A DNA stretch of 64,000 bases from Rhodocytophaga aerolata. Its GTDB lineage: Bacteria; Bacteroidota; Bacteroidia; Cytophagales; 172606-1. Shown here in pieces: positions 25,271-40,733 of the stretch. The translations under genes and the position numbers were made by a program. The notes beneath the pieces were generated by a model. The model worked only from the letters and a program-made list of their open reading frames with translations, ran no database searches and was not told the origin of the DNA. Location: the NCBI RefSeq assembly GCF_030503435.1, contig NZ_JAUKPO010000032.1, positions 1-64,000 on the forward strand, in the 5' to 3' direction. Each line of letters opens with the position of its first letter. Position 1 is the first letter of the stretch.

Positions 25271-25317
25271 AGCTGTGAATTGTGGGAAAGTTGCAAACTT
25301 TTCCACAATTCACAGCT
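25271..25317. repeat. Long palindrome A (21-bp arms)
   Basis: Arms 25271-25291 and 25297-25317 pair along their whole length with a single G-T mismatch (G25286). The element begins AGCTGTG, contains TTGTGGG/TCCACAA and ends CACAGCT followed by CT. It sits exactly between the helicase remnant and the truncated 3' end of the ISL3 transposase. Its layout matches palindrome B at 39215-39265, including the position of the G-T pair. Confidence 0.85.
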
Positions 25318-25449
25318 CTAGGGCCATTTGAGTGGATCTCCCAAGTTTTGTAACAAGTGCCATCTATCAGCAACCTGTGTAGCCGTAGGAGCTCCTTTTC
25401 TGGCTGCCTCGGCAAAGGTGGTATCGCGATCTCTGGAAATAATCTCTAT

Positions 25450-25468
25450 TGAATCAGTCCTGATTCAT
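25450..25468. repeat. 19-bp mini-hairpin inserted in ISL3 transposase
   Basis: The plus strand reads TGAATCAGTCCTGATTCAT: 6-bp arms TGAATC/GATTCA and a short loop. Excision joins CCA to ATA in the transposase frame (HP-IEII). The arms are identical to those of the hairpin at 39858-39876 in an unrelated transposase. Confidence 0.8.
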
Positions 25469-25494
25469 TGGATGTTCTTTTAGCCATTGCTCGT

Positions 25495-25521
25495 GGACCG
25501 ATGACACGAAGTGTCAGGTCC
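25495..25521. repeat. 27-bp mini-hairpin (GGACC...GGTCC) inserted in ISL3 transposase
   Basis: Outer stem GGACC/GGTCC, inner stem TGACAC/GTGTCA, loop GAA, and a 2-nt bulge (GA) on one side. The insert brings a stop codon into the transposase frame; excision restores ETK-YEQWL. Its architecture matches the 29-bp elements at 39513 and 39649. Confidence 0.8.
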
Positions 25522-26130
25522 ACTTGGTTTCTAATTTATCATCTGGTAGTAAATCGATCGGTTTTCTTGTGTCTAAATCTACAAGGATAGTAGCATACGT
25601 TTGTCCTTTGCGTATTGCCCACTCATCTATCCCTAAGATTTTTGGGATAGCTGTATCTGCTATTGCTACTTTCTTCAACAGGTTCAACAGCGTATCTGCA
25701 CTCACTAAATGGATATTAAGCAATTCTAGCAGAAATGCAGCTTTTTCTCCACCTAATTGTAAGGCTAAGTTTTGTAGATAATGTTCCAGGCGGGTGCTTC
25801 TTCGGGCGTAAGCGGTAATAGCTGGATGCAGTCGCTCACAAAACACTTTTCTTTGGCAATCTTTAGCTTCACAGTAAAATCGCCTGACGTTCAACTCCAT
25901 TATCACTCTTTTGTCTGCCCAAGGCAAGCCGGCCACTTTTCTGCTATAACGGCTATGAATTCTTTGGCTAATGGTATGGCAAAGTGGACAATGCACCACC
26001 GGATGGCCGCTTGTCAAAACTAAGGTAAGCTGCTTTTCTCCGTAGGTTATTCCATTTAATAGTAAACCTGGTATAACAGGCAACAAACAATCAACATTCA
26101 ATTAAGTCTCCTCTTTGTCTATACAACAAT

Positions 26131-39013: not shown

Positions 39014-39214
39014 CGTTGATTGATAGTCCTAGAATAGATTTACCAAGGTCTCGTCCGGAAAAAAGTTGACGATTTTGGTTGGATAAAAAAAACAAATTCT
39101 AATTACGGATATAGCTTGACAAAAGTAAAATATTCTTCTTTGTTATTATACCTGTGTACTGATCAAGGTTGACAAAAATCATAAGTATTTTTATCTTAAA
39201 ACTATCATTGTCAT

Positions 39215-39265
39215 AGCGGTGGACTTGTGGGTAACTCTGCAAGAGTTATCCACAAGTCCACCGCT
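39215..39265. repeat. Long palindrome B (24-bp arms)
   Basis: Arms 39215-39238 and 39242-39265 pair completely except for one G-T, with loop GCA. It starts AGCGGTG, contains CTTGTGGG / TCCACAAG and ends CACCGCT followed by CT. It lies 7 bp beyond the orfB stop inside the IS. Compared with palindrome A, bases differ on both arms in a way that keeps pairing. Confidence 0.88.
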
Positions 39266-39512
39266 CTTTAATTCACGAGTTCTTAGTAGTACTACCTTCA
39301 TTATTGTAAGACTTCTTCTTCCACTTCTTTACTAAAGGCTCCTCTAGCTGATGAGCCAATGAAGGAGTCAAGTTACTGCAGCTCATATGAGGGCGAAGTG
39401 TATTGTAATTAGTAATCGCTCTTTCTACAGCCAATCGTGCCTCCATATGACTTTTGAATACCTGATTTAACTTAAACTCGTGCTTTAGTATTCCATTCAC
39501 TCTTTCTGCTAT

Positions 39513-39541
39513 GGACCTGCGACGATGTCTGCATCGGGTCC
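39513..39541. repeat. 29-bp mini-hairpin (GGACC...GGTCC), copy 1
   Basis: Outer stem GGACC/GGTCC, 5-nt bulge TGCGA, inner stem CGATG/CATCG, loop TCTG. Excision rejoins AYENP to IAERVNG in orfB. It is an exact reverse complement of 39649-39677. Confidence 0.88.
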
Positions 39542-39648
39542 TGGATTTTCATAGGCTTCACCACTATCGGTCATGCTGATAGTGATGCCTGCTGCTTTGA
39601 GCTTTTTTACATATTCAAAGCTACAATACTGCACTCCACGGTCAGAAC

Positions 39649-39677
39649 GGACCCGATGCAGACATCGTCGCAGGTCC
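39649..39677. repeat. 29-bp mini-hairpin, copy 2 (inverted)
   Basis: A perfect inverted copy of 39513-39541, separated by 107 bp of native transposase sequence. Excision rejoins KLIH to RSDRGVQY (shared CGT codon) in frame. Confidence 0.88.
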
Positions 39678-39857
39678 GATGAATAAGCTTATTCTCCCTT
39701 TTACTACGATTGGCAAGTGCTATTTCCAAGGCTTGCAAGCAGCCTTCTGTACTTAAGAATTGATGTAAGCAGTAGCCTATAATCTTTTTCGAATACGCAT
39801 CAGTAATGAGAGATAGATAGTTAAAATCATAACCAACATAAATGTAAGTCATATCAA

Positions 39858-39876
39858 TGAATCAAGAAAGATTCAT
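39858..39876. repeat. 19-bp mini-hairpin in IS3 orfB
   Basis: The plus strand reads TGAATCAAGAAAGATTCAT; it shares TGAATCA...GATTCAT with the ISL3 copy at 25450-25468, with a different loop. Excision rejoins QVWV to IDMTYIYVG in frame. Confidence 0.82.
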
Positions 39877-40203
39877 TTACCCAAACCTGCTCAGTTTCTA
39901 TGATAGAAAGGCCTTTGATCAAATTAGGGTATTTTCTCAGCAGATGATTGGAATGAGTAGTTTTAGGCACAGATCTTCTATGCCTAATGAGTAAATGATG
40001 TGTTCTAAGTAACTCATGTAGACGATCTCTACCCATAGAAATGCCACTTTTTTGTAAGGGTTCTCGCAATAACAAATACAATTTTTTTGTACCTAATCCC
40101 GGGATCTCTCTTCTAATAGCTATAACTAAATCCAAGGCCAGCATAGATTGAGCAATACGTTGATCTAAAAATACCCTTTTTTGATGAAAAGCTTGACGGC
40201 TGA

Positions 40204-40222
40204 ATGAACCATAATGGTTCAT
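40204..40222. repeat. Possible further 19-bp hairpin at the OrfB start
   Basis: ATGAACCATAATGGTTCAT has 8-bp arms TGAACCAT/ATGGTTCA. An 18-bp insert here would be in frame (adding MNHYGS before FSRQAFHQ), so the sequence alone cannot show whether it is an insertion. Confidence 0.35.
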
Positions 40223-40279
40223 CAAACAGTCGGCAAAGGCTACCGACGCTTACCTTTGCAATTTGAGTATGTTGCAGCT

Positions 40280-40657
40280 TTAAGACCGTTTGGTACCAGA
40301 CTTTTTTCGGATGGATAGTTGAAAATCTTTCTCGGCCACATCTATCATGGTATGAAGGGCTAAAATCATTAGATTAGCCTCTTGTAAGGCTTTTTCCAAA
40401 TCCTTATTTCGTTGTTTTAAAGCTTCTAGGTTTTGTTTTTGCTTTTCACTCATGGGAGGCAAAGATATAAGTCCTTGCTCAATCTTTTGCTGATAGGATG
40501 AAACCCAATGATAGATTGTTTGGATAGAGTGAATGCCTAATTCTTGCATGATTTGTTTAGCATCTTCGCCACCAAATAGCACGCGAAAGGCTACTGCCTC
40601 TTTAACTTCTTCGCTATAATGATAGCGGTTTAATAGTTCTCGAATGTGATCTTGCAT
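40280..40657 (-). CDS. IS3-family OrfA (HTH transposase subunit)
   Basis: A 125-aa protein with an N-terminal HTH (AVAFRVLFGGEDAKQIMQEL, IHSIQTIYHWVSSYQQK) and a C-terminal leucine-zipper coiled coil (ALKQRNKDLEKALQEANL). This is the DNA-binding half of an IS3 transposase; OrfAB fusion normally needs a -1 frameshift near the orfA 3' end. It is intact, with no hairpin insert. Confidence 0.88.
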   Translation of the reverse strand: MQDHIRELLNRYHYSEEVKEAVAFRVLFGGEDAKQIMQELGIHSIQTIYHWVSSYQQKIEQGLISLPPMSEKQKQNLEALKQRNKDLEKALQEANLMILALHTMIDVAEKDFQLSIRKKSGTKRS

Positions 40658-40733
40658 AGATACAGTTTTGTTTAAAAACTGTCAACCTATATCCGGACAA
40701 GACCGGAGGCAGACATACTATAAATACCGTAAC

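Follow-up and report, generated by a model that had tools for sequence, protein, structure and literature searches.

Why should a transposase gene be broken by short palindromes and, apparently, by nothing else? The window analysed here--the whole 64,000-nucleotide stretch of Rhodocytophaga aerolata contig NZ_JAUKPO010000032.1 (positions 1 to 64,000)--contains an IS3-family insertion sequence (IS) whose orfB gene is interrupted by several hairpin-forming inserts, and a second, ISL3-type IS in the same window raises the same question. The answer favored here, at a probability of roughly two in three, is that the inserts are miniature, non-coding, non-autonomous and structure-dependent mobile elements of 16-32 bp that reside in transposase genes and in group II introns. 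Elements of this size have been inserted repeatedly at fixed spots of many types of transposon within one family of large-genome Cytophagales. Four genomes are referred to below: G000, which is the window's own genome; G001, which is a complete genome; and G002 and G004, which are further genomes of the Cytophagales family.

The interrupted elements of the window

The IS3 element carries an orfA helix-turn-helix (HTH) domain, an orfB DDE core (pieces of the interrupted gene match the rve integrase core) and terminal inverted repeats, as members of the IS3 family do; the repeats are imperfect (GGTCT[C/T]GTCCGGA...GTTGAC, at 39047 and 40704). The two 29-bp inserts and the 19-bp insert (Table 1) lie where the preliminary description had located them, and an open reading frame check agrees with it that removing these 77 bp opens the frame from 39273 to 40225. 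Its count of three inserts fell one short: a fourth, of 16 bp, lay upstream of the start then claimed for orfB. Together the four inserts total 93 bp (29 + 29 + 19 + 16). Inserts 3 and 4 are exact reverse complements--that is, one element in opposite orientations--while the sites of inserts 2 and 3 correspond to the first and second catalytic D, respectively. Insert 1 folds with a z-score of -5.8.

An uninterrupted relative of this IS occurs in G002 (contig C24), which represents a sister genus; there 1299 bases correspond to positions 1-1392 of the window query, exactly 93 fewer. This copy lacks all four inserts, and its native junctions--FGK/SRQ, WVADMTY, IHHSDRG and YENQIAERVNG, where a slash, here and below, marks a point of insertion--are close to those that had been predicted from the window sequence. 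With this relative uninterrupted, the hairpins are not native to all members of the group. An explanation by native structured segments or ordinary decay, in which nothing is mobile, draws on the decayed state of some of the bearers, yet it is refuted by uninterrupted relatives, by recurrence and by covariation (see below), and may be regarded as extremely improbable.

In G004 (contig C107) all four sites of the window IS3 are occupied. The IH-SDRG site holds the element of insert 3 in the same orientation, as a nearly identical 29-mer; two other sites carry different but pairing sequences (TGGATC..GATCCA for TGAACC..GGTTCA and, at the insert 2 site, TGGACC-AAATTC-GGTCCA for TGAATC-TTTCTT-GATTCA), and the hairpin at the insert 1 site is not the one found in the window. 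Lesions of an ordinary kind, 1 nt each, are also present in the G004 copy, as are several additional hairpin inserts. As for the ISL3-type gene, its 27-bp element has near-identical copies in G002 (L153) and G004 (L177).

Table 1. Features of the two hairpin-bearing insertion sequences in the window.
Feature	Position	Strand	Basis
IS3-family insertion sequence	39047..40704	-	window sequence; ends kept in G002 and G004 relatives
orfA, intact, HTH_Tnp_1	40280..40657	-	open reading frame and domain match
orfB, rve integrase core, four hairpin inserts, open otherwise	39273..40320	-	open reading frame, alignment and domain match
Insert 1, hairpin GATGAACCATTATGGTTCATTC, net 16 bp, at LFG/SRQ	~40203..40223	-	absent from uninterrupted G002 copy
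Insert 2, hairpin AATGAATC-TTTCTT-GATTCATT, net 19 bp, at WV/DMTY (stem coordinates)	39856..39877	-	alignment, fold and pattern search
Insert 3, 29-bp element GGACCTGCGACGATGTCTGCATCGGGTCC (gene sense), at IH/R-SDRG	39649..39677	-	sequence, pattern search and alignment
Insert 4, same 29-bp element inverted, GGACCCGATGCAGACATCGTCGCAGGTCC (gene sense), at YENP/IAERVNG	39513..39541	-	sequence and alignment
Truncated ISL3-type transposase, two hairpin inserts	25380..26101	-	Zn_ribbon_ISL3 in 25514-26101
27-bp element GGACCTGACACTTCGTGTCATCGGTCC in ISL3-type gene	25495..25521	-	sequence; fold z = -4.5
19-bp class hairpin AATGAATCAGGACTGATTCAAT in ISL3-type gene, directly before SRDR motif	25448..25469	-	sequence and pattern search

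Larger structures accompany these elements. Directly past the orfB stop, within the window IS3, is a 51-bp near-perfect hairpin (39215..39265); G002 and G004 have hairpins like it, that of the G002 IS having a different sequence at the same place past the gene end. Two larger inserts, one of ~148 bp with long inverted repeats and one of ~221 bp, lie alongside the hairpins in the interrupted gene of the G004 C107 IS3 copy (L009/L017). The ISL3-type gene of the window terminates in a 47-bp hairpin, and a long near-perfect hairpin lies at ~25271-25318, directly past the end of that gene.

Hosts and distribution of the elements

Fuzzy and protein-guided scans of more than 1 Mb of IS-bearing regions yielded dozens of inserts, many with a net length of 29 and others of 28, 19 or 16. 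Net insert lengths of 16, 17, 19, 23, 26, 28, 29 and 31 are represented, mostly not multiples of 3, and the element consensus starts with GGACC or GGAGC and ends with GGTCC or GGCTCC, or else has the stem TGRAYC. The pattern GGACC-N5-CGATG-N4-CATCGGGTCC, with at most 3 mismatches, gave 3, 12, 4 and 12 matches in G000, G001, G002 and G004, respectively, as against 0-2 for its reversed control. The 19-nt class (that is, AATGAATC-N6-GATTCATT with 1 mismatch) was found at five places in G000 and its control at 0, the five being the window IS3, the window ISL3-type IS, two IS1182-like copies and one IS982-like gene. (The names IS982-like, IS1182-like and IS481-like were assigned by eye, and the IS481-like gene has no Pfam match.) Searching the genome for the 19- and 29-bp elements, as had been proposed, thus brought to light further copies in other transposase genes, and the existence of a family of very small hairpins in such genes, first suggested from the window alone, is borne out both by the uninterrupted relatives and by the presence of these elements at other loci of the genome as well as in sister genomes.

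Whole-genome searches covered some of the hairpin sequences and two genomes, G000 and G001. Seven matches to GGACC-N19-21-GGTCC lack internal pairing, and all of these lie in ordinary reading frames. The hosts of the structured matches are IS3, IS1182-like, IS256, IS630 (DDE_3), IS91 (Zn_Tnp_IS91) and probable IS481-like elements, together with one group II intron (RF02001); in the IS256 host, Transposase_mut is matched on each side of the hairpin. Two structured places whose host gene is not assignable, G000:C111:17901 and G001:7601227, were left out of this tally. The 16-32-bp elements live almost exclusively in mobile-element genes. Among the host-assigned places in G000 and G001 no structured copy is intergenic, which counts against reading the hairpins as mobile mini-elements.

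A wide taxonomic scan took in one hairpin sequence, the 29/30-mer. Among GTDB contigs this sequence occurs only in two Cytophagales MAGs (the window's own genome possibly being outside that scan), and a viral scan gave one match, probably by chance. With its matches limited to these MAGs, both of the same family, and to that single viral match, the 29/30-mer looks family-restricted. Rfam recognized no known RNA in the hairpins, and literature searches turned up no account of hairpins peculiar to transposase genes.

Precise, recurrent and recent insertion

The elements insert precisely, recur at the same sites, covary in structure and have spread recently among diverged IS of one genome. Where the native sequence of a site is known, the 30-nt element usually replaces one pyrimidine, mostly T: CCT-T-GTCAC becomes CCT-[30]-GTCAC; GGCTT-T-ATG becomes GGCTT-[30]-ATG; AAATT-T-AAG becomes AAATT-[30]-AAG; and AAGATTT-T-ATC becomes AAGATTT-[30]-ATC, in which last case the element is nested inside another element (L238). 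Sites that recur among IS3-type genes are ERDI/KKA, QT/YGSPR, DI/TYI, KGF/MYL, GWA/MSD, H/SDRG, KGN/CYDNA and KYE/. The elements may point either way with respect to the gene, but a given site usually has them in one orientation. As the same hairpin is found at different sites and different hairpins are found at one site, the choice of site lies outside the element, a point that counts against the favored reading.

This last point is also in keeping with a host system that inserts hairpins at conserved transposase sites, i.e., a targeted anti-transposon mutagenesis, as are the frequent coincidence of recurrent sites with catalytic motifs and the many unrelated transposase families, plus a group II intron, that are affected. 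Yet no effector or guide locus turned up, the transposase families offer no shared sequence for a single protein to recognize, and hairpin-bearing IS have multiplied all the same; such a defence is an improbable origin of the inserts.

Several observations bear on when the elements arrived. Three IS3 elements of G001, only ~70% alike, have an identical 30-mer at the slippery-site position (GATAT followed directly by AAAAAAGG). L182 and L220 have two identical hairpins in common, their genes differing by ~17% (by eye). In a tree of 15 IS1182-like copies the insert sites are patchy, the sisters L233 and L234 having no hairpin and two hairpins, respectively; at site 381 the hairpin is identical in three copies and has one change in a fourth, and the codons just past it differ between copies (CTT/CGT/CGA/CGC). 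Since these codon differences fall within five bases of identical hairpins, the flanks were not co-converted. Identical hairpins in diverged IS copies with unconverted flanks imply that the elements postdate the IS copies that carry them and are acquired whole; recent insertion, one of the options in the preliminary description, is likewise indicated by identical hairpins at shared sites in IS copies that are 17-30% diverged. Gene conversion was considered as a mode of spread and is unlikely, inasmuch as differences begin ~5 bases past the identical site-381 hairpins.

Two further IS1182-like copies of G001 (L235 and L237) contain short remnants that keep the frame (CTGAAC at site 433, CTGCTACGTGCCTGA at site 288) and resemble partial losses or footprints.

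In the G001 IS256 copies (L203) a palindrome with 25-bp arms lies past the hairpin, its left arm having been rewritten as an inverted copy of the right arm, which is native; it is a clear template-switch event and leaves the frame intact. This is the one clear templated palindrome that could favor a purely local origin, in which template switching or slippage forms quasi-palindromes in dying IS genes. By contrast, the hairpins at issue are inserted precisely and with nearly constant length, are not derived from their flanks, and appear as the same hairpin in unrelated genes, sites and genomes. For the 29/30-nt class, recurrence at unrelated sites refutes local mutation, and as a general account it is very improbable.

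Structure and covariation

When seven of the short elements are aligned, 93.9% of the cells are paired and five pairs are changed on both sides; the covariation score is 0.667, as against 0.285 for shuffled alignments (0/500) and at most 0.15 when the pairing is slid. Members of the 30-nt class have an outer GGACC/GGTCC stem around two interleaved, mutually exclusive helices (A-B-A'-B'). In twelve such elements both helices, 6-10/16-20 and 11-15/21-25, covary, with a score of 0.665 versus 0.293 for shuffled alignments (0/500), some of the rows having been picked by fit. Four elements at site 101 of IS1182-like genes (L230, L221, L232 and L238) constitute a set that is defined by its site and so is free of that bias: their sequences differ, their pairing is the same, and they exhibit double compensation (TTAAAT-CACG, TTAGAT-CAAG, TGAAAT-AAG, TAAAAT-CAAG). 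Judging from these alignments, pairing is maintained by compensatory changes and the structure is under selection. A true pseudoknot was set aside for the 30-nt class: with no nucleotides left over for loops, the two helices would more likely form alternative hairpins.

Multiplication of hairpin-bearing elements

Three hairpin-bearing IS are multicopy in G001, and the copies of each are near-identical and lie in different surroundings. Eight copies belong to an IS3-type element that carries two hairpins, five (one of them split in two) to an IS1182-like element whose three hairpins are its sole lesions, and three to an IS256 element bearing a single hairpin. That such IS have multiplied requires either help in trans or the bypass or removal of their hairpins. 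Candidate helpers are present in G001, namely an 84% identical IS256 at 7632885 and a 498-aa IS1182-like frame at 7646729.

Were ribosomes to bypass the hairpins, or were the hairpins removed from the mRNA, as with byps and T4 gene 60, the bearer IS would be autonomous and their transposase output lowered. The multiplication of the three G001 elements is consistent with this, as is the outer stem, which would bring both junctions together, and so is the window IS3 copy, which has no frameshift or stop beyond its four hairpins. The earlier claim that hairpins are the sole lesions holds for that copy, but not for L182, L148, L097 and G004 C107, which bear further stops or frameshifts, and the eightfold IS has one extra frame change. 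Several other points argue against bypass: about ten sites compared by eye share no take-off codon or frame phase; the replaced base often alters conserved Y or C codons (TAT to CAT, TGT to CGT); one hairpin lies within a group II intron, where it is untranslated; no ordinary host gene was seen with a hairpin; and the intact G001 relatives just mentioned could act in trans. Bypass or removal is, on balance, unlikely. More broadly, it is possible, though doubtful, either that the hairpins, as bistable inserts, are the bacterial counterpart of mitochondrial byps--skipped in expression, so that multi-hairpin IS are autonomous and self-limited--or that a host defence places them in transposons.

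In one hairpin-bearing IS of G001 (L038), GGCTGGGCC has become GGCTCTCGCC ~95 nt past the orfB hairpin, which restores a 345-codon open frame across the hairpin.

Comparison with known systems

REP and REPIN sequences are 20-40-bp palindromes of bacterial genomes whose stems are kept by compensatory change and for which mobilization in trans by an HUH enzyme (a RAYT, or Y1, transposase) has been proposed (PMC2817692, PMC3116915, PMC3733652). The elements described here are likewise small palindromes with compensatory stem changes; unlike REPs, however, they lack a GTAG/GTGG or CGTC end tag, do not flank a Y1 gene, and, whereas REPs are predominantly extragenic, are intragenic and site-recurrent in transposase genes. 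Rickettsia palindromic elements (RPE) are ~150 bp long and sit in frame in metabolic genes (PMC10969869). Both they and the present elements are palindromic and occur within protein genes, but those here are 16-32 bp long, mostly out of frame, and in transposase genes. The very small dispersed repeats of cyanobacteria that Elhai described in 2008 are reportedly mobile and of about the same size. Mitochondrial double-hairpin elements are also tiny, mobile and structured; the elements here have interleaved helices rather than two separate hairpins, are bacterial and occupy transposase genes. In comparison with MITEs, the whole element is the palindrome, and an unsystematic look at the regions examined revealed no autonomous partner.

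In yeast mitochondria, bypassing does not require a strict match between take-off and landing sites. The byps of Magnusiomyces mitochondria are short inserts in many genes that are inactivating unless skipped (PMC5009743). Like byps and the T4 gene 60 gap, the hairpins are short gene-disrupting inserts; here, though, no unused codon or take-off rule was found and ordinary genes are spared. The elements work like REP-type or byp-type mini-elements but fall outside the definitions of both REPs and RPEs, and they are filed as miniature palindromic mobile DNA.

If they are simply mobile, they would be among the smallest mobile units known: structures of 16-32 bp and nothing else, specialised to live in genes that belong to other mobile elements. 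With insertion sites resolved to the base, the movement of a non-coding unit and its choice of transposons only would become testable. If instead bypass were true, this would be, as far as known, the first case of a bacterial chromosome in which bypass elements are widespread. Either way, many transposase 'pseudogenes' in such genomes share one systematic kind of interruption.

A possible route of movement

If the inserts are mobile elements, as favored here, each would enter as a precise unit at a limited set of sites within transposase genes and group II introns. Its function would rest on single-strand structure, the short classes folding into a simple hairpin and the 30-nt class into an outer stem with alternative helices. 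A trans-acting enzyme most probably recognizes the folded strand and moves it, joining it at a target pyrimidine, with the HUH/Y1 route as the nearest known model. Most host transposases would thereby be inactivated, and such IS copies would presumably move in trans.

A Y1 transposase of the IS200/RAYT type was considered as the mover: the genes are present, but they show no association with the hairpins, none of the 20 Y1 loci in the four genomes being flanked by them, and no mobiliser was identified. The Y1 loci show IS200-type hairpins of their own.

A 24-nt hairpin, ATGCTCCAAG..CTTGGAGCAT, lies within or beside two Y1 transposase genes of G000 (L275 and L278) and may be another element of this general kind.
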